In this document: piece by piece, positions 4,395 to 50,085 of the stretch | Position numbering within the stretch: position 1 is the stretch's first letter | Layout: every line of letters begins with the position of its first letter | Assembly (NCBI GenBank): GCA_012522755.1 | Contig: JAAYJV010000196.1 | Location: forward strand, 1 to 63,171 | Source: Candidatus Hydrogenedens sp. | Lineage (GTDB): Bacteria > Hydrogenedentota > Hydrogenedentia > Hydrogenedentales > CAITNO01 | Length of the DNA stretch: 63,171 nt | Reading direction: 5' to 3' | Notes under the pieces: generated by a model | Databases searched by the model: none | The model's input: the letters and a program-made list of their open reading frames with translations, nothing else | Told to the model about the DNA's origin: nothing | Made by a program: the position numbers and the translations under genes

Positions 4395-5042
4395 ATGGAA
4401 GATATGCACAATTTGCTGGATACTTTGGGAGACAAAGAAGTCGCCTGGGTGGATCGGCGTGATGCAGCTGAAAAGATTGGCAAAGAGGTTCATCAGATAA
4501 TCGGTCGTCTGAGCAACCATCTTCAGGATGAGGATATGGATGTGAAGATGACAGTTGAACGGAGTCTGGAACCTGTTCACCTTTTGCTGCGCACCCGGGA
4601 TCAGGAACGCAAGCAGTTCAGCCTGCGGGATTTGGCGTTGTTCTGCGAAAAGACCGGAGTCCGTACTGTCAAACCGCATAAAACGGGCTTCGTCATCAAA
4701 GTGCGCCTTCCCAATGGCCGACGACAGCGCGTCTATCTCATGCCCCATCAATTGCGTGATGGCCGCAAGATCCTGCGCGTTCTGGCTGTGTGTTGCGAAG
4801 CGAATATCAAAAATGTTCAAAAGGGCTTGCGCACGAATTCACGGCTGGCCCACAGTGCCTTTTCACTCATCAAATCCAAAGGTATCGTCTATATTTCCAT
4901 CCTCAGCAACATTTATCGTCAAGAAGCGACACCGGACAGGATTAAAAGAACGGTCAAAGAGGTTGCCTATTATGCAGACTGGATGACCTATCTGGATGAA
5001 CCAGTCGCAGGAGACGAAGAAAGCGAATTCGAACAAGAATAA
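4395..5042 (+). CDS. Uncharacterised soluble protein
   Basis: I do not recognise this family. The chosen start (ATG at 4395, protein beginning MEDMHNLLDTLGD) has GGGAG six bases upstream; an in-frame ATG at 4347 lies further up without a good site. The 215-residue product has an N-terminal helical part (about 1-85) resembling one or two HEAT-like helices. A mixed alpha/beta domain follows, with LPNGRRQRVYLMPHQLRDGRKIL and a C-terminal helix-rich segment reminiscent of YbjN-like or secretion-chaperone folds. It has no signal peptide and a very acidic tail (EESEFEQE). Two genes follow in the same direction, after 26 bp and then a 4-bp overlap, so a three-gene operon is likely. Confidence 0.7.
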   Translation: MEDMHNLLDTLGDKEVAWVDRRDAAEKIGKEVHQIIGRLSNHLQDEDMDVKMTVERSLEPVHLLLRTRDQERKQFSLRDLALFCEKTGVRTVKPHKTGFVIKVRLPNGRRQRVYLMPHQLRDGRKILRVLAVCCEANIKNVQKGLRTNSRLAHSAFSLIKSKGIVYISILSNIYRQEATPDRIKRTVKEVAYYADWMTYLDEPVAGDEESEFEQE

Positions 5043-5068
5043 GAATTCAGGCTGAAGGAAGGACCTCC

Positions 5069-5584
5069 ATGAAGCCTCACGACACAGCCGATATTGTGGT
5101 GGGTGTTGACAGACATGCGGCGGTACAGGAAAAAGAACTGCGTTCGGCTCCCTCCCGGAATTTTCAAGGCATGAATTTATCGGGGCTCTGCTTTTCCGGA
5201 GCACAACTGGCCGGGGCCGATTTTCGAGGGGCCAGGCTGCGTGGAACGCGCTTTGATTGTGCCGATCTCAGCGGTGCGGATTTTACCGGGGCCGATCTGG
5301 AGCTGGCTGTTCTGGGCGGTGCGATTTTGAAAGGAGCCTGCTTCCGGGATGCCAATCTTGAGCGGGCCAATCTTGTGGGGGTGGATGCCGGGGATGCGGA
5401 CTTCTCCGGTGCACGCATGTATTTTTCCCGGCCGGGCAACGGGAATTTCAGTCGCTCTTCTTTCCGGGGCGCACAACTGGATCGAGCTATTTTCAGGCGG
5501 GCCAATCTCACAGACTGTGATCTCAGCGATGCCACAGGGGTTCCCAATTTTGAAAATGCCCAACTTGAGGGGATTAAAAAATGA
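5069..5584 (+). CDS. Pentapeptide-repeat protein
   Basis: 171 residues built almost entirely of pentapeptide repeats of the form A(D/N)LXX: FSGAQLAGADFRGARLRGTRFD, CADLSGADFTGADLE and so on, from about residue 28 to the C-terminus. Such repeats fold into a right-handed quadrilateral beta-helix. Some members mimic DNA and protect gyrase; many have no known function. One interruption at about 115-130 (MYFSRPGNGNFSRSS) breaks the regular register. It has no signal peptide. AAGGAAGG precedes the ATG. Its stop overlaps the next start (ATGA), so it is translationally coupled to the hydrolase gene. The partner and role are unknown. Confidence 0.88.
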   Translation: MKPHDTADIVVGVDRHAAVQEKELRSAPSRNFQGMNLSGLCFSGAQLAGADFRGARLRGTRFDCADLSGADFTGADLELAVLGGAILKGACFRDANLERANLVGVDAGDADFSGARMYFSRPGNGNFSRSSFRGAQLDRAIFRRANLTDCDLSDATGVPNFENAQLEGIKK

Positions 5585-6147
5585 TCTTTGCCCACTTCCG
5601 CACTGAAATCAACGAATCCAATCAATTTGTCATTGCCTGTGCAAAAGAGAAAAAGGCGCTGCTCATCGATGCGCCCATTCTCGACAGACGTATCCCCGCT
5701 TTTTTTAAAGAGCATGCCCTGACACTGAGCGGTATATTCATCACCCATGCCCATTTCGACCACACGGAAGGATTGGCGGATATTCTGGCCTGGCGAAAAG
5801 CGCCTGTTTATGCGGCCCGGGACACAATCACAGGTGTCCCTGCTGTGAAAAAAGAAGAGGACGACACCCTGCAGCTGGGCCGACTGACGGGGCGCTTCAT
5901 CGCTCTGCCGGGTCATACGCCCTGTTCACTGGGACTGATCATTGAGGACCGCATATTCACAGGGGATGCGCTCTTTTCCGGAAGTATCGGCGGCACCCCT
6001 GATGAGATTACGCGGCAACAGGAAATTCAGACCGTGGCGCAACAGGTATTCAGCCAACCCGATCACTATCAGATCCACACGGGGCATGGCCCTTCCTCCA
6101 CCGTATGGGTGGAAAAGAATTACAATCCCTTTTTTGTCCAGCCTTAG
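5581..6147 (+). CDS. MBL-fold metallo-hydrolase (glyoxalase II-like)
   Basis: 188 residues with the metallo-beta-lactamase metal-binding motif THAHFDHTEG (HxHxDH, about residues 56-61). A second histidine lies in LPGHTPCSLG, an aspartate in FTGDALF, and a final histidine in HTGHGP. This is the complete two-metal set of glyoxalase II-like hydrolases. The substrate cannot be told from sequence; small thioesters or S-glutathionyl compounds are typical for this size. It overlaps the pentapeptide gene by 4 bp. Its end also overlaps the convergent metF end by 4 bp, so there is no room for an intergenic terminator. Confidence 0.88.
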   Translation: MIFAHFRTEINESNQFVIACAKEKKALLIDAPILDRRIPAFFKEHALTLSGIFITHAHFDHTEGLADILAWRKAPVYAARDTITGVPAVKKEEDDTLQLGRLTGRFIALPGHTPCSLGLIIEDRIFTGDALFSGSIGGTPDEITRQQEIQTVAQQVFSQPDHYQIHTGHGPSSTVWVEKNYNPFFVQP

Positions 6148-7031
6148 TCTACAGGAGTGAAAAGAGCCAGAGAACGGCATATATCCACCGTTGCCCGCGA
6201 TTTGTTCAAGACATAAAAGTGTATTCCAGGCACTCCCTGAGCAATCAGTTCTTCCGCCTGTCGCGCTGCGTAATATACCCCCACGGCATGCTGGCCTTCT
6301 TTATCATCTTTGTATACTTCCAGGCGTTTCACGAGCCGAGAGCTCAGATGAGCGTTGCACATGCTGACGATATGCCCAGCCTGAGCCAGATTGGTCAGGG
6401 GAAGAATTCCGGGGATGATGGGCACTGAAATTCCCGCATCGTCACAACGGTCTCTGAAGCGGAAATAATCGGCATTGTCAAAAAAGAGCTGGGTGACGAT
6501 AAAATCCGCTCCCGCATCCACCTTCCGTTTGAGATTTTCTATATCAGCCGCCGTGGATGGTGCTTCGGGATGGGTTTCAGGGTAACCACCCACACTGATG
6601 CCCATATCAGGGAATTTCGTTTTGATCAGTGATACCAGCTCATTGGCATAGTGCAGACCATCAGGGGGAGGGCTGTAATTTTCTTCGCCTTTGGGAAGGT
6701 CTCCGCGCAAGGCTACAATATGGGTGATCCCGATTTCCCGGGCCTGGACAATAAAGGAACGGAGCTGTTCCACACTGCTGCCTATACAGGTCAGATGGGA
6801 GGCCAGGGGAATCTCGGGATGATTTTTGTGAACCGCAGCCAGAACGTCCAGTGTCCGCTCCCGTGAACTGCCCCCGGCTCCATAGGTACAGGTGATATAA
6901 GCAGGCCGACAGGCGACCAGTTCTTTCAGGTGAACAAAGAGAGCTTTCATACCCTCGGCTGTTTTCGGCGGAAACAATTCAAAGGAAATAACGGGCTGAC
7001 CTGTATCATAAAAAGAAGCGAATCGTACCAT
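6144..7031 (-). CDS. metF: Methylenetetrahydrofolate reductase
   Basis: 295 residues, the usual length of bacterial MetF. The enzyme reduces 5,10-methylene-THF to 5-methyl-THF with FAD and a reduced nicotinamide, supplying methyl groups for methionine synthesis. Visible features are SFELFPPKT at the N-terminus, TCTYGAGGSSRERTL, ALRGDLPKG, VGGYPETHPEAPS and the FAD/folate region VTQLFFDNADYF. ATG at 7031 is preceded by GAGGAG at six bases; a TTG two codons earlier is less likely. It lies upstream-to-downstream of menD on the same strand (gap of 84 bp) and may be transcribed with the men genes. Confidence 0.96.
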   Translation of the reverse strand: MVRFASFYDTGQPVISFELFPPKTAEGMKALFVHLKELVACRPAYITCTYGAGGSSRERTLDVLAAVHKNHPEIPLASHLTCIGSSVEQLRSFIVQAREIGITHIVALRGDLPKGEENYSPPPDGLHYANELVSLIKTKFPDMGISVGGYPETHPEAPSTAADIENLKRKVDAGADFIVTQLFFDNADYFRFRDRCDDAGISVPIIPGILPLTNLAQAGHIVSMCNAHLSSRLVKRLEVYKDDKEGQHAVGVYYAARQAEELIAQGVPGIHFYVLNKSRATVDICRSLALFTPVD

Positions 7032-7115
7032 GAACAACTCCTCTTGATCGCTTGCGCTCTATCAGTTATCAACGGATACTTCAAGCCGGTGCCGGTCCAA
7101 GCGTAGCAACCGGAC

Positions 7116-8873
7116 TCATTGATCTCTTTCACTTTGGAAACAAATCAACTTTTTACAGGCCTGAAGCGAACTTTCTCTGTCTATCCTGCATTCGATTATA
7201 CACGACTTTGGCGCACTCTGCACAGCAGCCCAGCACCGTTCAAAGTCACCCACAGTACGGACGTCGTACCATGGAAGACCGAACATATGAGCGAGTCCTT
7301 TGAATTCCCATTCATGGGGATGGATAAAACAGGGTATCAGTATTTCCGGAAATTCTGCGATGGGCAGGTGGGAGAATATGCCGCCGCCGCCATTGTTCAC
7401 AATGATGAGAATGACCGGGACTTCCGAGTTGGCCAGCAGAGGCAGCGAACTGAGGTCATGCAATGCGCTCATGTCACCCAGAAGCGCTGCGGTGCGCCGT
7501 CGGGAACCACAGGCAATGCCCGCGGCCGTGGCGATATTACCGTCAATGCCGCTCACGCCTCTGTTGGCATGAACAAGAAAAGCGGCACAGTGAGTACCCT
7601 GCATGTCCATATATCGAACGGGCATGCTGTTTCCGAGAAAAAGCGCCACATCGGCCTCCACTTTTTTCGTCAACAGGGAGGCGAGAGAAAACTCTGAGAG
7701 AGCCGCATCTTCACACAGCCCGGCTTCTGTACTCCCGGTGACGGCTGGAGACGGATCCGGAGGAGGCGCAAAGGGTGATTCTGCAGTTTTTCTTTCTTCA
7801 AGCATGCGAAGCCAGCCGTGACAGAACTCTGATATTTTCTGCTGCACATGACGGGTCTCCAGGTGGAAGGGATCCCTTTTTTCCGGGCGGGGATGAACAT
7901 GCACATAGAGGCCGGGAGAATCTTTTGCGAGAAACTCATTGAATACCTTTGAGAGAAAACTGTCACCCAGGTGGAGGACCGCCTCAAAGCCGGCTGAAAA
8001 ACTTGCAGTCTCCCCTCTTTTCAAAGAGAGATCATAGGAGAGGTGGAAGTTTGCAGGAAGATCTTTTCGGCGGCATCCGGAAAGGAGATCGGGAAAGACG
8101 GGCCAACCCAGTTTTCGGCCGAGTATCAAGGCCATTTCCTGATCTTCAGGATCATGCATGGATCCCAGCAGAATCGCCTTGTTCTTCACAGCCTCAAATT
8201 TATCGAGAAGGGAACGCAACTCTTCATCAGAAAGGGCAGGCGCTGCAACTTCATCGACCTGCCAGGGAAGGGAACTGTTTTTCCAGGGAGCCAGCTCATC
8301 CAGATAATCCGGAGGCCAGGGCTGATCAATCCGAACAGGCGCAAGCGGTTCACGGAAGGGACAATTGATGTGAACAGGACCCGGGGCATGAGAGAAACAT
8401 GGTGCCAGTGCCTGATCAATGCGGCTGAGAAGGGTTCCGGGACTTATCGACACATCAGGACAGGGCAGAGACAGGGCGTGGCGCACATGAGATCCGAAAA
8501 ACTGCTCCTGATCCATGGTCTGGTTGGCGCCGCAATTCTGCAGTTCGGGCGGCCTGTCGGCACTGAAAATGACCAGAGGAAGGCCGGAAAGATTGGCCTC
8601 CGCCACAGCGGGAAAACAATTGGCAACGGCTGTACCGGAAGTGCAGACGACAGCGGCGGGCATGCCTGCTCTGGAGGCACCCAGGGCGAAATAGGCGGCT
8701 CCGCGTTCATCATGATGGACAACAGTTTTCAAGGAGGGATTACGCCAGGCCGCAACAGCGAGGGGAGCGCTTCTGGAGCCGGGAGCAATCACCACGCACC
8801 TGATACCCCGGCGGGCGGCTTCTTCCATGAGCAGAGAGGCCCAAAGCATATTCAGATTGCTGTCATATTCCAT
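7116..8873 (-). CDS. menD: 2-succinyl-5-enolpyruvyl-6-hydroxy-3-cyclohexene-1-carboxylate synthase
   Basis: 585 residues. MenD is a thiamine-diphosphate enzyme that condenses isochorismate with 2-oxoglutarate in menaquinone synthesis. Conserved pieces are APGSRSAPLAVAAWRNP near the N-terminus, DERGAAYFALG with the catalytic glutamate region, GNSMPVRYMDM, ANRGVSGIDG, and the ThDP/Mg motif with NNGGGGIFSHLPI. The ATG at 8873 gives the family's normal N-terminus (MEYDSNLNMLWASLLMEE); an upstream in-frame extension runs inside menF and is rejected. The start overlaps the end of menF by 11 bp, so the two are translationally coupled. Other men genes are not in this window. Confidence 0.96.
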   Translation of the reverse strand: MEYDSNLNMLWASLLMEEAARRGIRCVVIAPGSRSAPLAVAAWRNPSLKTVVHHDERGAAYFALGASRAGMPAAVVCTSGTAVANCFPAVAEANLSGLPLVIFSADRPPELQNCGANQTMDQEQFFGSHVRHALSLPCPDVSISPGTLLSRIDQALAPCFSHAPGPVHINCPFREPLAPVRIDQPWPPDYLDELAPWKNSSLPWQVDEVAAPALSDEELRSLLDKFEAVKNKAILLGSMHDPEDQEMALILGRKLGWPVFPDLLSGCRRKDLPANFHLSYDLSLKRGETASFSAGFEAVLHLGDSFLSKVFNEFLAKDSPGLYVHVHPRPEKRDPFHLETRHVQQKISEFCHGWLRMLEERKTAESPFAPPPDPSPAVTGSTEAGLCEDAALSEFSLASLLTKKVEADVALFLGNSMPVRYMDMQGTHCAAFLVHANRGVSGIDGNIATAAGIACGSRRRTAALLGDMSALHDLSSLPLLANSEVPVILIIVNNGGGGIFSHLPIAEFPEILIPCFIHPHEWEFKGLAHMFGLPWYDVRTVGDFERCWAAVQSAPKSCIIECRIDRESSLQACKKLICFQSERDQ

Positions 8874-42486: not shown

Positions 42487-43473
42487 ATGGCTGGTTTCAA
42501 TGAAGGCATGAGATCCTGGCATGGTCTGACGAAAAGAAAGGAGCAACCGGAAGACCCCGAGACAATAGCGGGAAAGCTTGCGGAAAGCTTTCTGAAAAGA
42601 CTTGTTGACTCCAATCTGAGATATAAAAACGGCTATGCTTTTCTGGGGAAACGAATCCCGTCATATCTCTATGGTCGCCGTTATGAGGTGGATCTCATCG
42701 TCCTGACCCCAAAACAGGTGCATGTGCTGGAGGTGAAGAACTGGTCGGGAACTCTTCAGGCCCGTGAAGACCAGTGGATTCAGACGCGCAGAAATGGCGA
42801 TGAAATAAAACATCCCCACCTTATAGCCCACAATCAGGAGAAAAAAGAAGCTCTCATTTCCTATTTGCACAGCCAAGGCGTCCCTGTCAATCCCTCCTGC
42901 ATTACGCAGAAAATAATTTTCATGAATAACAGGATGAGAATTCTCTCTCCAGAGATCAGGAAAGATCCGCATATCATTGAAGCACGGGAGCTCGGACGCT
43001 ATCTTGATTCCCAATGGGGAAACTCATCGGCTGAGAAAATTGTTCATTCAATCATGGAAGTGCTTCTGGAAAGGGAAAGGAGCAATCAGGCTGAGGAGGC
43101 CTTTTTAAAAAGTGTACAGGGCAAGTATTTCCAACAGACTCTATTCCTGTTGCATTCTCTGGAAACCTGGGACATACTGCGCCTCCACGGCGGCAAAACA
43201 CTGGTAGGCGACGGCTTGCAACTGATTACGAAGAAAACATCTGTTGATCTGAAAAAGCTTCCGAGCAGGACGCAATATCCTGTGATCTGGTCCCAGCCAA
43301 CTGCGCTGCTCTATCTTCTGTGCCTTCTGGGAAAAACATCTGTGGGCTCTGTAAACTTTACGAACCGGAAAATAGCGATCACTCCCCATGATAAGATTAA
43401 ATTTCACCTGGTCAGAGAACCCAAGCCAACTTTCATCCCCGCAGGCGAGGTGGATCTTTTCGTGCGGGGTTGA
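42487..43473 (+). CDS. NERD domain protein
   Basis: 328 residues. The N-terminal 200 residues hold a NERD (nuclease-related) domain: RYEVDLIVLTPKQVHVLEVKNWSGTL contains the D-x8-10-E-x-K arrangement expected of a PD-(D/E)XK-like nuclease fold. The C-terminal ~130 residues have no match I recognise (WDILRLHGGKTLVGDGLQL ...). There is no signal peptide. It starts 56 bp after the acyltransferase and has AGGAG before the ATG. NERD proteins are associated with DNA or RNA processing and sometimes with defence. The role here is unknown. Confidence 0.82.
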   Translation: MAGFNEGMRSWHGLTKRKEQPEDPETIAGKLAESFLKRLVDSNLRYKNGYAFLGKRIPSYLYGRRYEVDLIVLTPKQVHVLEVKNWSGTLQAREDQWIQTRRNGDEIKHPHLIAHNQEKKEALISYLHSQGVPVNPSCITQKIIFMNNRMRILSPEIRKDPHIIEARELGRYLDSQWGNSSAEKIVHSIMEVLLERERSNQAEEAFLKSVQGKYFQQTLFLLHSLETWDILRLHGGKTLVGDGLQLITKKTSVDLKKLPSRTQYPVIWSQPTALLYLLCLLGKTSVGSVNFTNRKIAITPHDKIKFHLVREPKPTFIPAGEVDLFVRG

Positions 43474-43490: not shown

Positions 43491-44438
43491 TTACTGTCTT
43501 TTCAACCACTGAACAAAGCGGGCCAGGCCTTCATCCATGGAAAAGCGGGGGTTGTAATCGAGCAGTTCCCGGGCATGCTGAATATCGGCATAAGTAATTT
43601 CCACATCACCGGGTTGCAGGGCCTTCTCTTCAATCTTCGCTTTTTTCCCCAGATGCTTTTCCAGCAGAGCAATGAGTTCGCTCAGGCTGGTCGTGTGCTG
43701 TTCACCCAGATTGAATATTTCATAGGCAAAGGGCCTGTCCACGGATTGGAGCATCCCGTGAATGATATCGTCAATGTAGGTGTAGTCCCGGCGGCTGTCC
43801 CCTTTGCCGAATACGGGGATGGGTTTATCCTGCAGCATGAGCCGGGCAAATTTGTGGATGGCCATGTCGGGGCGCTGGCGGGGGCCATAGACGGTGAAAA
43901 AGCGCAGCATGGTCACTTTCAGGCCATATAAATGGCTGTAGACATGGGCCTGCAACTCGTTCATCCTTTTCGTGGCCGCATAAGGGCTTACGGGTCGCAT
44001 GACCGGGTTGCTTTCTTTGAAGGGCACTTCTTTGGAGCCGCCGTAGACCGACGAACTGGAAGCGAAGACGAGGTGAGAGGGTTCATAACGTCGGCACATG
44101 TCCAGCATATGCTGACCGCCGATTACGTTTACACGATGATAGAGGTTGGGGTCTTCCAGGGAAGGACGCACCCCTGCCCGGGCCGCCAGATGCACCACCA
44201 CCTGAGGTCTTTCTTTTTCAAAGACCCGGCGCAGCGCTTCTTCATCGCAGATATCTGTTTCACAGAGGGTGAAACGGGGCTCCTGGAGCAAAGAACGGAT
44301 ATTATTCCTCTTTACGGCCGGGCTGTAATAGTCGTTGAAGTTATCCAGTCCCACAACCTTATCACCCCGGGAACACAATGCCTCGCACAAGTGTGAGCCA
44401 ATGAATCCGGCTGCACCGGTTACCAGAACAGTTTTCAT
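43491..44438 (-). CDS. NAD-dependent sugar-nucleotide epimerase (UDP-glucuronate 4-epimerase-like)
   Basis: 315 residues of the extended SDR family. The NAD-binding motif GAAGFIGSHLCEAL opens the protein. The catalytic YAATKRMNE (YxxxK) lies at about 153, and VTMLRFFTVYGPRQRPDMA is typical of UDP-glucuronate/galacturonate epimerases. The enzyme would supply a nucleotide sugar for a glycan or glycosylated product. It is the last gene of the minus-strand operon running from 50085, starting 12 bp after the maturase-like gene with AGGAAGG as its ribosome-binding site. It may be co-transcribed with that cassette or be a fortuitous neighbour. Confidence 0.92.
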   Translation of the reverse strand: MKTVLVTGAAGFIGSHLCEALCSRGDKVVGLDNFNDYYSPAVKRNNIRSLLQEPRFTLCETDICDEEALRRVFEKERPQVVVHLAARAGVRPSLEDPNLYHRVNVIGGQHMLDMCRRYEPSHLVFASSSSVYGGSKEVPFKESNPVMRPVSPYAATKRMNELQAHVYSHLYGLKVTMLRFFTVYGPRQRPDMAIHKFARLMLQDKPIPVFGKGDSRRDYTYIDDIIHGMLQSVDRPFAYEIFNLGEQHTTSLSELIALLEKHLGKKAKIEEKALQPGDVEITYADIQHARELLDYNPRFSMDEGLARFVQWLKRQ

Positions 44439-44450
44439 AGTATGCCTTCC

Positions 44451-46304
44451 TCAATCCGGGATACGATAGCTGAAGACCTGAACAGATTCATAGCGGCCCC
44501 GACGATACAAGGCCTCTCGCTGGATACCGGCCTTTTGGAAGCCGAGAATTTCCAGTGTCGCCATAAGTTCCGTCTCTTTTTCCGTAGCAAAGACAAGAAG
44601 ATGCCGAAGACGGGGGAGCCCGGCGAGCTGATCCATCAACTTTTTCAGGGTCGTCACCAATGCGGGACGGCCATAGGAAGCGGGCTCATGCATATAGAGC
44701 CACAGATGTCCCAGCTGACGTATGGGATCATGCTGCATTTTGATGAGGCCACAGGGAGTGCCATTCTTCTCAGTCAGCACATATTCCTGAATACCGCTGC
44801 GGGGATGGGTGGCGTCCATCTCCCGGTCATAGATTGTAGTCGTGAGAATGGAAGTCTCCGTGCAGAGGAAACAGGCGGCATCATTCCAATTTTCCCAGCG
44901 TACTCGCCAGGGCGCATCAGCCTCCTGCAGCGGACGGGCGAGGATATGATCGGTAAAGAGCGCCTTGAGAGCTGTCCCCCACTTGATCTTCTGACCCGCC
45001 CCGCTGCTCCCTGTCGCAGGGGGATCAAAGGAAGCGGTGCTTGCGGACAGGGGCGTGAAAAGAGCGATGGCCAGTTGAATCCACTGGCGTTGAACTTCAC
45101 ACCAGTGGGGATCCACTCTATGAGCGGCACCACTGCGTGAAAAATGAATGGCCGTATGGCCGCCGCCGCAGAGTCCCTGAGCCCAGCAACGCAGACATTC
45201 ACTGCGCTGCAGCACGCCTGTCCGGTGAAACTCATCCCACCTGGTGTCATCCATTGTTCCAGTGGTCAGATTTCCCAGAGAGCACTTTCCGGCCAGCAGA
45301 AACTCAACGGAGGGATAAACAGCTCTGTCCTCGGCAATGGCCAGGGAAGACAACACGGCGGGATCTCTCTGCAGACAGGGCTCGCCATCCCGTATGGCTT
45401 TAAAGAGGCTGCCCACAGGTTCAAAATAGCATTGCTCATTGCGCAGAAGAAGATTGGCAAAGTCCTGGGTACATTGTGTGAGTGCGGCGGCCACCTCGCC
45501 AGGTTGCAGATCGGGCCGGTTCATCCACAGATGAGGAAGATCGAGCAGGATATTTCTGAAACCGAGGCCACTCACTGTCTTGAACAGCTCACTGAACTTC
45601 GCTGTACCGGGCTGGACAACGAGTTGCAGGGGGCCGACCCCTTCCACGGCGTTCAGCGCTTCCAGAAACTTTCTGCTCTTGAGGGTATTTTGTATCCAGA
45701 GGACTTCGCGCACCACTTTAATCACGGGAAGATCCGCAAGAGGGAGGAGTCCCCGGAAGGCACAGTCGGGATAGTGCAGGTCTTTGGTGACAATGGGAAT
45801 ATCGAGTTCCAGAGAAAGCCTTTTCCCGGCTGCACGGGCTGCATCAACCCCGCGTTGCAGGGTGGCCAGTGCCTCTTCATCGAGTCCTTTGCCGCCTCCC
45901 GTGCAACGGAGAATAAGAGTCAACTCTGTTTCAGTTCCCGAACGACCCAGAAGGAAAGGAAGACTTTCTTCAACGAGAGCAGCCGTTCCTTCCGTTGTGG
46001 AACAGAGGGTGAGCCTTTTCAGAGCCGCTGTCTTTTGCGCCTCCTCCATCCATTTCCGGTCATTCTCGGGAGTCAGAATCGCTTTCGTCACGCGGAGATA
46101 TTCCAGTTCGCCTATGACTTCCAGCAACTCTTTTTCAGGATGTTTGTCTTTGAGCAGATAGAGGACTCTGTTTACAGGCTCGTGGGGATAATATTCCAGC
46201 ACATCCCGGGTAATGGCATCACATTCAAAGCAGAAGCAATTGGCCGTGTCCATGACGAAAGATCGCTGATCTATTTGAAATTTATGCAGTCTTGCCGGAG
46301 TCAT
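44451..46304 (-). CDS. Radical SAM/SPASM-like pseudo-maturase fused to a GNAT domain
   Basis: 617 residues from ATG at 46304, which shares a TGATG junction with the permease stop. Residues 1-95 (LHKFQIDQRSFVMDT ... DAITRDVLEYY ... LKDKHPEKELLEVIGELEYL) resemble the N-terminal peptide-binding region of SCIFF/QhpD-type radical SAM peptide maturases. Residues 96-325 look like their TIM barrel, but the CX3CX2C cluster motif is absent and the GGEP motif reads TGGGKG. A SPASM-like segment follows: YPS at 330 (usually YPC), then C370, C373, C379 and H383 (CX2CX5CX3C with the last Cys changed to His) and C402. Residues ~445-617 form a GNAT acetyltransferase domain. It is probably a pseudoenzyme that binds a peptide and acts with a partner or exporter. 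Confidence 0.7.
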   Translation of the reverse strand: MTPARLHKFQIDQRSFVMDTANCFCFECDAITRDVLEYYPHEPVNRVLYLLKDKHPEKELLEVIGELEYLRVTKAILTPENDRKWMEEAQKTAALKRLTLCSTTEGTAALVEESLPFLLGRSGTETELTLILRCTGGGKGLDEEALATLQRGVDAARAAGKRLSLELDIPIVTKDLHYPDCAFRGLLPLADLPVIKVVREVLWIQNTLKSRKFLEALNAVEGVGPLQLVVQPGTAKFSELFKTVSGLGFRNILLDLPHLWMNRPDLQPGEVAAALTQCTQDFANLLLRNEQCYFEPVGSLFKAIRDGEPCLQRDPAVLSSLAIAEDRAVYPSVEFLLAGKCSLGNLTTGTMDDTRWDEFHRTGVLQRSECLRCWAQGLCGGGHTAIHFSRSGAAHRVDPHWCEVQRQWIQLAIALFTPLSASTASFDPPATGSSGAGQKIKWGTALKALFTDHILARPLQEADAPWRVRWENWNDAACFLCTETSILTTTIYDREMDATHPRSGIQEYVLTEKNGTPCGLIKMQHDPIRQLGHLWLYMHEPASYGRPALVTTLKKLMDQLAGLPRLRHLLVFATEKETELMATLEILGFQKAGIQREALYRRGRYESVQVFSYRIPD

Positions 46305-47164
46305 CAGTAACTTCCCAGGGTGCCTTTGGAACGACTGTGATTTTCCATGAAACGGAAGATGGTCAGACCGACAAAGGTCCAGAAAAGGCAATTGCCGATG
46401 AGCCAGTAAAAACTGCTGTGAGCAAAGACAGAACTGAACACCATCTCCGGATCAGCACCGGCCACGGCGACAGAACGCATCTGCCCTTTGATCAACACAT
46501 ATTTGATGCAGATGGTCGCATCGGTAATGGGCAGTATGTGCAGCAGAAAAGTAAAGGGCCAGGGATTGGCAAGCAGTTCTTCTTTGGCGAAGATGGCCAG
46601 AGCAAAGAGACCCATACGCACGAGGATGGCCACCTGCCCCACCTGCTTGAAAACGAGAACCAGCCCGCCGACCATGAAGCCGAAGCCCACCAGATTGAAA
46701 AAAGTGAGCGTCAGCAGTATCAGGACAGGGATGGTATCCCAATGCAACATCCCTCCCACGCTCCAGGTGACGGCATAGACCATAATACCCGAAGACAAAA
46801 TGGTGGCCACGGAGCTGACGACCGTCTGGGCCATGAAGTTCACAGCCAGACCGTGGGGACTCATACAGAGCTGTTCCAGTACTCCCGTGGTGGCCATCCC
46901 CTGAAGGCCCTGGGTGAACATGCCCACCACTCCGAAGGCGAACATGCCGACAATAAAGCCCAGGATGAAGTTGGTCGCCGCTGAGGGATCGTCAAACTGC
47001 TGAACCCGTTCTTCCAGCCCTTCGCGGCTGTAAATAAAACCGGCAACGAGAACCATGAGCATGCCATAGCCCAGAACCAGTCCTGTCAGGGTCCGGAACC
47101 AATAGCGTCGCATGATGATAAAAGAGCGTACCAGCTCCGCTTTCATTACCAAGAGGAAAGACAT
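46304..47164 (-). CDS. ABC-2 type transporter permease
   Basis: 286 residues with six predicted membrane spans, arranged as one N-terminal span (WFRTLTGLVLGYGMLMVLVAG) and a group of five. The ABC-2 membrane domain motif region lies around NFILGFIVGMFAFGVVGMF. AAAGGA precedes the ATG at 47164; an ATG at 47146, overlapping the ATPase stop, is the alternative. It partners the adjacent ATPase as an exporter. It stops at the start of the maturase-like gene (TGATG), so transporter and maturase-like protein are made together. Confidence 0.85.
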   Translation of the reverse strand: MSFLLVMKAELVRSFIIMRRYWFRTLTGLVLGYGMLMVLVAGFIYSREGLEERVQQFDDPSAATNFILGFIVGMFAFGVVGMFTQGLQGMATTGVLEQLCMSPHGLAVNFMAQTVVSSVATILSSGIMVYAVTWSVGGMLHWDTIPVLILLTLTFFNLVGFGFMVGGLVLVFKQVGQVAILVRMGLFALAIFAKEELLANPWPFTFLLHILPITDATICIKYVLIKGQMRSVAVAGADPEMVFSSVFAHSSFYWLIGNCLFWTFVGLTIFRFMENHSRSKGTLGSY

Positions 47165-48210
47165 GTGTTTCCTTTCTCTGTCATATCAATATCTGTATTG
47201 TCCGTCGTGAGTCGAAGGAAGATGCTCTCCAGATTCTGTTTACGCTGTGAAATGGAGCGCAACAGGCATCGCTGTTCTTCAAAAATACGGACGATTTTAT
47301 ATAAAGCTTCCGATCGCAGCTCCTCGCTTTCACCGGCCAGCTGAATCAGCAGGGAAGGCTCATCGGTTTTTTCATATTCGACCTTGCCGATGCCGGGGAT
47401 CGCTGAAAAGAGCTCCGTGTCAACAGGTTTATCAAGACGGAAAACAAAGATCTGTTCGGAAAAATATTCCAGCAGTGACTCAGTGCGCCGACAGGCAACC
47501 AGTTTCCCGTGGTTGATGATGGCGATGCGGTCACACAATTCCTGGGCAACATGCATATCGTGGGTTGTCACCAATACGCCCCGCCCCTGTTCACGGGTCA
47601 TCTCCATGACTTTGTCTTTGATGGCGCGGCTGCTCTGCACATCCAGACCCGTGGTGGGTTCATCGAGAAGCAGCACATGGGGATCGGCAATGAGAGCGAT
47701 GCAGATGGCCAGTTTCTGTTTCTGGCCTCTGGAAAGGCGGCGCACCTGCACATTCTTCTTGTCCTGAAGGCCGATGAAATCCAGCAGATCATGGGCCCGC
47801 TCCTTCAGAATCGGGCCACGCACGTCTTTGAGCATCCCGTAATACACAAGATTTTCGAAAGGGGTCAGAGGCCAGAGGCTCGTGCGGGTCCCTTCCAGAA
47901 CCACGCCGACATGGCGCAGGATCTGGCGGCGTTTGCGTTCCACACTCATCCCTTTCACAAAAGCTTCGCCTGTGTCAGGGCGAACCAGTCCGGAGATCAT
48001 TTTGACGGTTGTTGTTTTTCCTGCACCGTTGGGCCCCAGCAGTCCGAAAATTTCGCCGGGTGCGATTGCAAAAGAAATATCATCAGCGGCGCATACTTCT
48101 CTTTTTTTGAAGAAGTGGCGCTTTCTGGTTTCTTCATCCACCGGAAGAATATGAGAGGTCGAAAAGCGTTTGCTTACCCCTTTTAACTCTACGAGAGCTG
48201 AATCGGTCAT
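47146..48210 (-). CDS. ABC transporter ATP-binding protein (NatA/ABC-2 type)
   Basis: 354 residues. Walker A is GLLGPNGAGKTT (about 57-68), the signature is LSRGQKQKLAI, Walker B is VLLLDEPTTGLD and the switch histidine is in VTTHD. The ~110-residue C-terminal extension (SEQIFVFRLDKPVDTELF ...) is typical of NatA/DrrA-like exporters for antibiotics, sodium or peptides. Its start overlaps the CPBP protease stop by 4 bp and its end overlaps the permease start. Confidence 0.93.
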   Translation of the reverse strand: MTDSALVELKGVSKRFSTSHILPVDEETRKRHFFKKREVCAADDISFAIAPGEIFGLLGPNGAGKTTTVKMISGLVRPDTGEAFVKGMSVERKRRQILRHVGVVLEGTRTSLWPLTPFENLVYYGMLKDVRGPILKERAHDLLDFIGLQDKKNVQVRRLSRGQKQKLAICIALIADPHVLLLDEPTTGLDVQSSRAIKDKVMEMTREQGRGVLVTTHDMHVAQELCDRIAIINHGKLVACRRTESLLEYFSEQIFVFRLDKPVDTELFSAIPGIGKVEYEKTDEPSLLIQLAGESEELRSEALYKIVRIFEEQRCLLRSISQRKQNLESIFLRLTTDNTDIDMTEKGNTCLSSW

Positions 48211-48902
48211 GGTACCTCCAGGGCTGCACTCATTTGAGGGCCTTCCAGGCTTGCAGAGGCTTCTTCGGGATCCTTTCCCTCCTGAAGCATGGCGTAATAA
48301 TCGAGATAGGAACTTTCAAGATTGCGGATGAAATGAACAAAGACCACGAGAGCCACGCTCAGGGTATAAGCATACAGGGCCCCGATGATCAGTGAAAAGA
48401 AGAAAAACTCCAAGGCTGATCCCCAGCCACTGCGGAAAAAATGGCCGTGCATGAGGCTGAAGCCCAGGGCGGTCAGCACAATGGCCATCCATTCATAAGG
48501 AAGCAGTTGAATCAGTATGGATTGTCCCGTCACTCTGTAGACCAGTTCTTCCACAAAACAAAGGCCCAGCATGCGGATACAGAAAGTGGGCACCCGCCCT
48601 GCAAAGTCTGCTATTTCCCGCAAGGATATGAAAATACGGAAGGCGTCACCGAGATGACAATGGGTCAGCAGCAATGACACAAAGAAGAGGCCATGTCCCA
48701 GCAGTATTCCGAGGCTCATATCGAAAGGCGACCAGAGATGCCGGGTCAGTAACTGCTGGTTCCAGGCCCACCACAACGCACAAAGCAAAACAACGCCTTG
48801 CAGCAGCGTATCCGGAATCAAACGCAGCGGATAGCCCCGCATATGCTTGTATCCGGAAATAAGCGTATGGACCAGCCACAGCAGGAGAAAGAAAGTACTC
48901 AC
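48207..48902 (-). CDS. CPBP-family intramembrane glutamic protease
   Basis: 231 residues, about seven membrane spans. The three CPBP motifs are present: EELVYR (EExxxR, about residue 118), FSLMHGHFF (FxxxH) and FVHFIRN (HxxxN). CPBP (Abi/CAAX-like) proteases include self-immunity and processing proteins of bacteriocin clusters as well as housekeeping enzymes. Next to an exporter and a maturase-like protein, a role in peptide processing or immunity is reasonable but inferred. The start is GTG at 48902, overlapping the GNAT stop by 4 bp. Confidence 0.86.
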   Translation of the reverse strand: MSTFFLLLWLVHTLISGYKHMRGYPLRLIPDTLLQGVVLLCALWWAWNQQLLTRHLWSPFDMSLGILLGHGLFFVSLLLTHCHLGDAFRIFISLREIADFAGRVPTFCIRMLGLCFVEELVYRVTGQSILIQLLPYEWMAIVLTALGFSLMHGHFFRSGWGSALEFFFFSLIIGALYAYTLSVALVVFVHFIRNLESSYLDYYAMLQEGKDPEEASASLEGPQMSAALEVP

Positions 48903-49525
48903 GCTTCCGCCCCGCTTTCTTCCGCAAGAGCCGCAATCATGCTTTGCAATGAAAACCGGTCCCCCTTGGAACCCAGTGCGTCGCGCATGGCGTAAAATTC
49001 AGAACGGAGCAGCCCATAGGCATAGGCGTCGTAGAGCTGATTGTCCCGGTAAACATGGTCTTTTAAAACAAGTTCCCGTTGCGCTCCCGATCTTTCGAGA
49101 ATGCGCCAGGAGTTTTTGTTGAAAGAATATATGAGGGCGCTCACGCGATGGAGATTCAGTTCATCGAAGACATATTCCAGAGCACGAAACACCGAAATGG
49201 CTGTGAGCATGCCTGCACCCCGATGAGAGGGCTTCACATAAATATCGAGACTGCAGGAACGGTTCTTCCAGGAAATATTCTGCAGACCGATCATCCCCAG
49301 AAGGCCCTCCTCTTTGCTGTCCATGAGCAGATGCAGGACTGAGGGCGGCGCATTGGCAGGGGTTCTTCCAAGCATGAGAATAATCTTTTCTCGAATCTGC
49401 CGCTGCGACTGGGCCTCATCGCCATAAAGAAAATATTGAAACTCAGGGTCTTCCATCCAGGCGAGAATCGTATCCAGATCTTCCCGTTCGGCCCGGCGCA
49501 GGAAGGTGTAGAGCTCTTTTTTCAT
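48899..49525 (-). CDS. GNAT-family N-acetyltransferase
   Basis: 208 residues. The GNAT fold is shown by DIYVKPSHRGAGMLTAISVF, where the R-G-x-G-x-x pyrophosphate-binding motif for acetyl-CoA reads HRGAGM. LHRVSALIYSFNKNSWRILERSGA, the strand-helix near the acceptor site of RimJ/RimL-like enzymes, is also present. A C-terminal helical extension of about 35 residues is specific to this protein. It overlaps neighbours by 4 bp on both sides. It could acetylate a peptide, a sugar or a protein. The substrate cannot be read from sequence. Confidence 0.86.
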   Translation of the reverse strand: MKKELYTFLRRAEREDLDTILAWMEDPEFQYFLYGDEAQSQRQIREKIILMLGRTPANAPPSVLHLLMDSKEEGLLGMIGLQNISWKNRSCSLDIYVKPSHRGAGMLTAISVFRALEYVFDELNLHRVSALIYSFNKNSWRILERSGAQRELVLKDHVYRDNQLYDAYAYGLLRSEFYAMRDALGSKGDRFSLQSMIAALAEESGAEA

Positions 49526-50085
49526 GAATCTTCCCTTTCCATCATTTCAGGATCTACCGAAGAAAAGGCGGAAGCTTCCAGTTCCAAAGTCTCCAGATCT
49601 CTCCAGCAGCCCCCGGCAAAAAGAACATCCCGTTGTATGCCACAGGAGACAAAGCCTTTTCGCACGAGACAGGCACGCCAGGCTGTTTCCGTATGGAGAC
49701 AGCTGGCCAGAAGTCGGGTGAGCCGGGTCTGATAAAAAGCGCGTTTCAAAAGATACTCCAGGGCTTCCGCCGCATAGGGGCTTGCATAGTGGTCTTCATG
49801 AGCGAATATGAGAAACAACTCGGCGAAACGGGCATCAGGATTCAAGCCGCGCAATCCGCCCCAGCCGCACAGAGAACCCGTCTCATCTTCAATACTGAAG
49901 AGCATGGCACGGGCCGCTTCGCTTTTCTGGAGAATTTCGAGAATTTCGGCGCGCCTGGGAAGCATACGTTCCCGGCGTCCGTCCAGAAGGGAGGCCCGGG
50001 GAATACCGTCATAGTACAAGGCCCGGACAAAAGCCGTATCGTCGGGCTCGCAATAGCGTATGGTTGTGTGAGAACTCAGTTTCAT
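49522..50085 (-). CDS. GNAT-like acetyltransferase, first gene of the operon
   Basis: 187 residues, GNAT-like over its whole length (IRYCEPDDTAFVRALYY ... LFLIFAHEDHYASPYAAEAL ... LTRLLASCLHTETAWRACLV). The segment GFVSCGIQRDVLF matches GFQKAGIQREALY at the C-terminus of the maturase-like protein (GFxxxGIQRxxLx). The two GNAT modules are therefore paralogous. The acetyl-CoA loop is weaker than in the next gene. The operon's promoter should lie in the 120 bp to mnmE; I see no clear boxes and no small precursor gene there. Confidence 0.75.
   Translation of the reverse strand: MKLSSHTTIRYCEPDDTAFVRALYYDGIPRASLLDGRRERMLPRRAEILEILQKSEAARAMLFSIEDETGSLCGWGGLRGLNPDARFAELFLIFAHEDHYASPYAAEALEYLLKRAFYQTRLTRLLASCLHTETAWRACLVRKGFVSCGIQRDVLFAGGCWRDLETLELEASAFSSVDPEMMEREDS

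Follow-up and report, generated by a model that had tools for sequence, protein, structure and literature searches.

A small-peptide processing and export system guided by a common leader, derived from machinery of the SCIFF/QhpC type and no longer using radical chemistry, is the reading that we favour (probability roughly 0.72) for a gene cassette of Candidatus Hydrogenedens sp. and its homologues throughout the Hydrogenedentota. The cassette lies in a stretch of 63,171 nucleotides, referred to as the window. It encodes a homologue of the SCIFF maturase CteB from which the radical-SAM motif has been lost, two proteins with a GNAT fold, an intramembrane protease and an ABC transporter pair. 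The missing element of such a system, the precursors, has now been found as arrays of short leader-bearing peptides, and those tested were recognised by neither Pfam, NCBIfam nor PHROGs.

The six-gene unit and its distribution

Seven open reading frames, all on the minus strand, were present exactly where an earlier note on this DNA had placed them, with the stop/start overlaps that it described. They are listed below in the order of transcription.

49522..50085, minus strand: GNAT1, GNAT-fold protein of 187 aa (Acetyltransf_3, 9e-9), first gene of the conserved six
48899..49525, minus strand: GNAT2, GNAT-fold protein of 208 aa (Acetyltransf_3, 1.1e-19)
48207..48902, minus strand: CPBP/Rce1-like intramembrane protease of 231 aa (PF02517, 5.5e-11)
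47146..48210, minus strand: ABC transporter ATPase, DrrA-like, 354 aa (ABC_tran PF00005, 3.8e-30)
46304..47164, minus strand: ABC-2 type permease of 286 aa (assigned by predicted fold)
44451..46304, minus strand: pseudomaturase (MAT) of 617 aa (RRE, radical-SAM/SPASM-derived region and GNAT domain)
43491..44438, minus strand: NAD-dependent epimerase/dehydratase (PF16363/PF01370, GDP_Man_Dehyd/Epimerase), outside the conserved unit

The GNAT1/GNAT2, GNAT2/CPBP and CPBP/ATPase junctions each overlap by 4 bp, the ATPase and permease genes overlap by 19 bp, the permease and MAT genes have a TGATG in common, and a gap of 12 bp separates MAT from the epimerase. Right after the epimerase, a gene for a NERD-domain protein (42487-43473) lies on the opposite strand and is conserved in genome G001.

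MAT was detected by tblastn (617-aa query) in 55 of 60 relatives and in 47 of the 48 phylum genomes that were at least 85% complete; in both counts one genome, G019, contributed a GNAT1 paralogue alone. A profile search of 291 genomes found it in 62/68 Hydrogenedentota genomes, and in other phyla its matches were confined to stretches that characterise active radical-SAM proteins or GNATs. The order GNAT1-GNAT2-CPBP-ATPase-permease-MAT was found again in nearly every locus of sufficient length, across the families of the phylum, a recurrence far beyond chance. The comparison of gene order across genomes, which the earlier note had proposed as a check on its seven-gene operon, therefore upheld six of the seven genes: these are almost always neighbours, and the homologous operons carry the MAT-like gene. 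The epimerase adjoins MAT only in a few genera close to that of the window and is a local neighbour, not a member of the conserved unit.

Departures from the common arrangement were few. In genus g20 (loci L144, L145, L146 and L047), the unit is split in genome G031, with GNAT1-GNAT2-CPBP-ATPase and permease-MAT on separate contigs, and GNAT1 alone lies apart from the rest in G036. Some of the f5 genomes have a third free-standing GNAT between GNAT1 and GNAT2 (L049, L055, L058 and L060). MAT, the permease and the peptides described below are jointly missing from four f4 genomes (G032, G037, G041 and G044).

A contig scan with alignment A1, the patterns of which are phylum-specific, matched only loci of the Hydrogenedentota type. 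Homologues of the permease outside the phylum were accompanied by the ATPase in six loci, with a CPBP protease alongside in one (L182) and neither MAT nor a GNAT found at any of the six. In this one locus (genome G104, positions 4815-7266), the CPBP-ATPase-permease trio, unaccompanied by GNAT or MAT, is homologous to that of the window (33%, 46% and 24% identity), and short Gly-rich open reading frames were seen directly upstream of it. PADLOC assigned no defence family to the cassette. Our literature searches retrieved no paper on this system, and nothing on point concerning the combination of GNAT, SPASM and RRE or inactive radical-SAM proteins in RiPPs.

A CteB homologue without the radical-SAM motif

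The MAT product searched alone had no Pfam match. A profile of 37 MAT relatives, however, matched CteB (5wgg) at 2.5e-40 over 432 positions (4-435). CteB was also the top match of the predicted fold (5wgg, 3.5e-16), followed by GNATs of the SpeG/RimL type, and profile-profile comparison (hhalign) related MAT to active SCIFF/QhpD/nif11-type maturases at 99.9% probability. MAT thus joins a full-length homologue of CteB, the maturase of SCIFF, to a GNAT domain in one protein. It is composed of an RRE (residues ~1-80), a radical-SAM-derived region lacking the cluster (~95-310), a SPASM remnant and the C-terminal GNAT domain (~450-617), which was recognised as Acetyltransf_4 in 27/37 relatives. The scores remained below the NCBIfam cut-offs for SCIFF maturases (TIGR03974, 55.1 versus 425 bits) and QHNDH maturases (TIGR03906, 52.2 versus 453 bits). 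The MATs formed one group in the tree, separate from eight active maturases, with the root placed between the two for drawing only.

The loss of the catalytic cluster, which the earlier note had read from the window, proved to be general: the CxxxCxxC motif was found in 0/37 MATs and is kept in 8/8 active relatives. The ligands of AuxI are largely gone (CGGGC and [YFW][PG]C in 3/37 MATs each), and the four-cysteine set of AuxII is present in all 37, with C370, C373, C379 and C402 invariant. The assignment of these cysteines to AuxI and AuxII is based on the known SPASM pattern of anSME and CteB. A near-invariant CFCxECD at residues 23-29, within the RRE-like domain, is absent from the active maturases compared and is a possible metal or redox site. 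Intact SCIFF/nif11-type radical-SAM maturases were found in only a few Hydrogenedentota genomes (L133, L134, L135 and L136), away from the cassette, and a filtered scan of small open reading frames showed no MKHI peptide beside them.

GNAT1 is homologous to the GNAT domain of MAT. GNAT2 is strongly conserved (mean column identity of 64% in alignment A6); its nearest solved structure is of the SpeG type, and it has weak similarity to PseH. The canonical CoA P-loop, [QR]xxGx[GA], was found in none of 25 GNAT1 and none of 26 GNAT2 homologues, and acylation may therefore not occur; in the GNAT domain of MAT, for which the pattern is too broad to be diagnostic, it was matched in 11/37 cases. Together with the absence of the radical-SAM motif, these counts speak for one sub-case of the main reading, according to which MAT and the GNATs modify nothing: four binding domains would form a complex that binds leader and helix and passes small membrane-active peptides, unmodified, on to the protease and exporter. 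The strong conservation of the GNAT folds despite the missing P-loop points in the same direction. However, binding alone would hardly call for as many as three separate GNAT domains, and many invariant polar residues of GNAT2 look like an active or binding pocket; we regard this sub-case as possible, with the odds against it.

The CPBP motifs EExxxR, FxxxH and HxxxN/D are kept, with E118, E119, R123, F148, H152 and H190 invariant, and the protein scored below the NCBIfam cut-offs of the myxosortase type (MrtJ, 25.1 versus 75; MrtS, 24.2 versus 130; Mrt_core, 19.2 versus 100). The Walker and signature motifs of the ATPase are conserved (alignment A8), and its best NCBIfam match was DrrA (TIGR01188, 1.1e-69), under the cut-off of that model. 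The permease, which had no Pfam match when searched alone, has a predicted fold similar to the ABCG/ABCH, Wzm, KpsM and NosY exporters; judged from this model, it forms a predicted ABC-2 exporter with the adjacent ATPase.

Peptide arrays with a common leader

A scan for short open reading frames around the cassette, a search that the earlier note had also suggested, was productive: at 26 loci, GNAT1 proved to be preceded by a tandem array that shares its strand. The array peptides have a common leader, MKHIxxI[ST]RxPxxA (also scored as MKH[IL]xx[IL][ST]xxPxxA). HMMs built from alignments A9-A12, one for each type and each made from hand-picked examples, sorted 146 distinct peptides into types A, B, C and D. 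The arrays follow the order D(-D-D)-C-B-A with few exceptions, and some have shrunk to D-A. M[KR][HR] begins 120/146 peptides, and 107/146 have alanine at position 14.

Three lines of evidence identify the array open reading frames as genes. In a total of 43 kb upstream, 76 open reading frames had the leader motif, compared with 0/224 on the opposite strand and 0/4,040 control frames elsewhere. A Shine-Dalgarno-like sequence precedes 125 of the 146 peptides. Eleven pairs gave pN/pS values of 0.16-0.35, which are upper bounds since synonymous sites were near saturation; the peptides are under purifying selection. The mean number of cysteines is 0.16-0.17 in types A, B and D and 2.2 in type C. 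Types B-D carry a hydrophobic stretch, whereas type A is much less hydrophobic and may act differently from the others. The type A profile found members in 54/68 phylum genomes and nothing significant in ~223 other genomes. In G019 and G027, the cassette is present and type A was undetected, both genomes being fragmented there. Compared with solved chains, this profile matched neither the CteA leader nor anything meaningful, and NCBIfam returned nothing relevant.

The earlier note had reported that no precursor gene was present. This held within the window, in the lineage of which mnmE stands upstream of GNAT1 in place of the array, but not for the genome: a five-peptide array was found on another contig (C117, locus L173, genome G000), unlinked to the cassette. 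Behind this array lie a terminator-like hairpin and a gene that was named, from its sequence, as alpha-glucan phosphorylase-like. The lack of linkage in this clade is a point against our proposal; the fact that the genome has its own array nonetheless supports it, as does the joint absence of cassette and peptides from the four f4 genomes. The proposal of a ribosomal-peptide modification/export cassette in that note was borne out as to its maturation- and export-like gene set; the epimerase does not belong to the set, and precursors do exist.

The peptides also bear on a second sub-case of the main reading, in which the GNATs would place a fatty acyl group on a late lysine, as in selidamides, and the resulting lipopeptides would be cleaved and exported. 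Lysine or ornithine is acylated by GNATs in selidamides (PMC9505594). A lysine occurs beyond residue 20 in 129/130 leader-bearing peptides, and the position of a late lysine after the helix is invariant among the hand-picked examples of each type. However, lysine is a common residue, so that its near-universality is weak evidence, the GNATs are nearest to SpeG/RimL-type acetyltransferases in sequence and fold, and GNAT1 and GNAT2 have no P-loop. We therefore consider fatty acylation unlikely.

The hydrophobic stretch of types B-D would also suit membrane peptides, type I toxin-like or otherwise, that are mere neighbours of the cassette. This explanation is very improbable, as one leader is found on four dissimilar, unrelated cores and also in SCIFF and QhpC-like peptides, and the arrays show linkage across families, co-absence and a fixed order. 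Hardly tenable is the earlier note's alternative of an envelope glycoconjugate acetylation/export operon with a co-opted peptide-binding domain: the epimerase does adjoin the cassette in the genome of the window, and the Wzm- and KpsM-like permease fold and the weak PseH similarity of GNAT2 would fit, but the epimerase, its only sugar gene, does not share the conservation of the unit, proteins with ABC-2 folds handle a range of substrates, and the conserved partner is the peptide array, the peptides of which account for the RRE.

Proposed peptide processing and relation to known systems

In the leader-guided system that we propose, short precursors of types D, C, B and A, whose genes adjoin the cassette in most species, would be made with the common leader, which the RRE of MAT would bind by analogy with CteB and QhpD. 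MAT, devoid of radical chemistry, would serve as a scaffold held by the remaining AuxII iron-sulfur cluster and would offer the peptide to GNAT1, GNAT2 and the GNAT domain of MAT itself. Through a donor site of non-canonical form, these GNATs might transfer an acyl group to an amine, either that of the late lysine or the N-terminal one; alternatively, they might do no more than bind the helix. The CPBP protease would then cut off the leader, probably near Ala14, where the conservation of alanine leads us to place the cleavage, and the ABC-2 exporter would release the hydrophobic or amphipathic peptide. The four peptide types are fixed phylum-wide, and more variation would be expected among antimicrobials, which suggests a housekeeping role, as structural subunits or signals, rather than that of a weapon. 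Tentatively, and at somewhat less than even odds, we regard the radical-SAM pseudoenzyme that has kept only AuxII, together with GNAT-fold proteins lacking the CoA loop, as a modification machinery that has turned, as a whole, into an apparatus that binds, processes and exports four fixed housekeeping peptides. The results suggest that leader recognition of the SCIFF/QhpC type can persist after the loss of radical chemistry and be put to a new use, one that is fixed in nearly all of this uncultured phylum. The ~146 precursors and their single recogniser allow direct tests of leader binding, protease cleavage and possible acylation in E. coli.

In SCIFF/ranthipeptide systems (CteA-CteB, TIGR03973/TIGR03974), the CteA leader is bound by CteB through the RRE (PMC6231123, PMC8326336). 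The wide spread of SCIFF in Clostridia has been taken to speak against antimicrobial activity, and quorum sensing is named for it (PMC8326336). MAT resembles CteB over the RRE, barrel and SPASM regions, and both systems are near-universal in a major bacterial group with precursors that begin MKHIK. At 30 clostridial-type loci, most SCIFF peptides begin with MKHIKT or a close variant (e.g., MKHIKTIN, beside the maturase), and a QhpC-like peptide beside a QhpD-type maturase (L137) begins with MKHFKPVN. Since this leader start recurs in both, the RRE recogniser and the leader look co-inherited from SCIFF/QhpC-type systems, and, as far as the sequences indicate, cores and chemistry look to have changed meanwhile. 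Unlike SCIFF, the Hydrogenedentota system has a MAT without the radical-SAM motif, with AuxI ligands largely lost and a GNAT domain added, and an array of four peptide types, the cores of which lack the six cysteines in 45 residues of SCIFF; GNATs, a CPBP protease and an ABC-2 exporter lie inside the unit.

In the biogenesis of the QHNDH small subunit (qhpC, D, E and F), the QhpC leader is required for interaction with QhpD, QhpE removes the leader and QhpF exports the product (PMC7876137). A QhpD-type RRE protein, a leader-bearing small protein, a protease and an ABC exporter are common to both systems. The Hydrogenedentota protease, however, is of the CPBP and not the subtilisin-like type, and radical cross-linking is impossible. 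The skf (sporulation killing factor) operon encodes a maturase, a CPBP-type protease and an ABC ATPase/permease, and is similar to the cassette in this combination. It differs in that there is a single toxin precursor and the radical-SAM Twitch enzyme is active (PMC6231123). The skf operon is not known to include GNATs or to be universal in a phylum. GNAT enzymes beside a ribosomal precursor are also a feature of selidamides and other GNAT-modified RiPPs (PMC9505594), but the Hydrogenedentota unit has no lanthionine synthetase and a different leader, and its acylation is only putative. Since defining features of SCIFF and QHNDH were tested for and found to be absent, we file the cassette under neither but as a variant of leader-guided peptide systems, with the RiPP-type trait of linked short precursors that combine a common leader with diverse cores.
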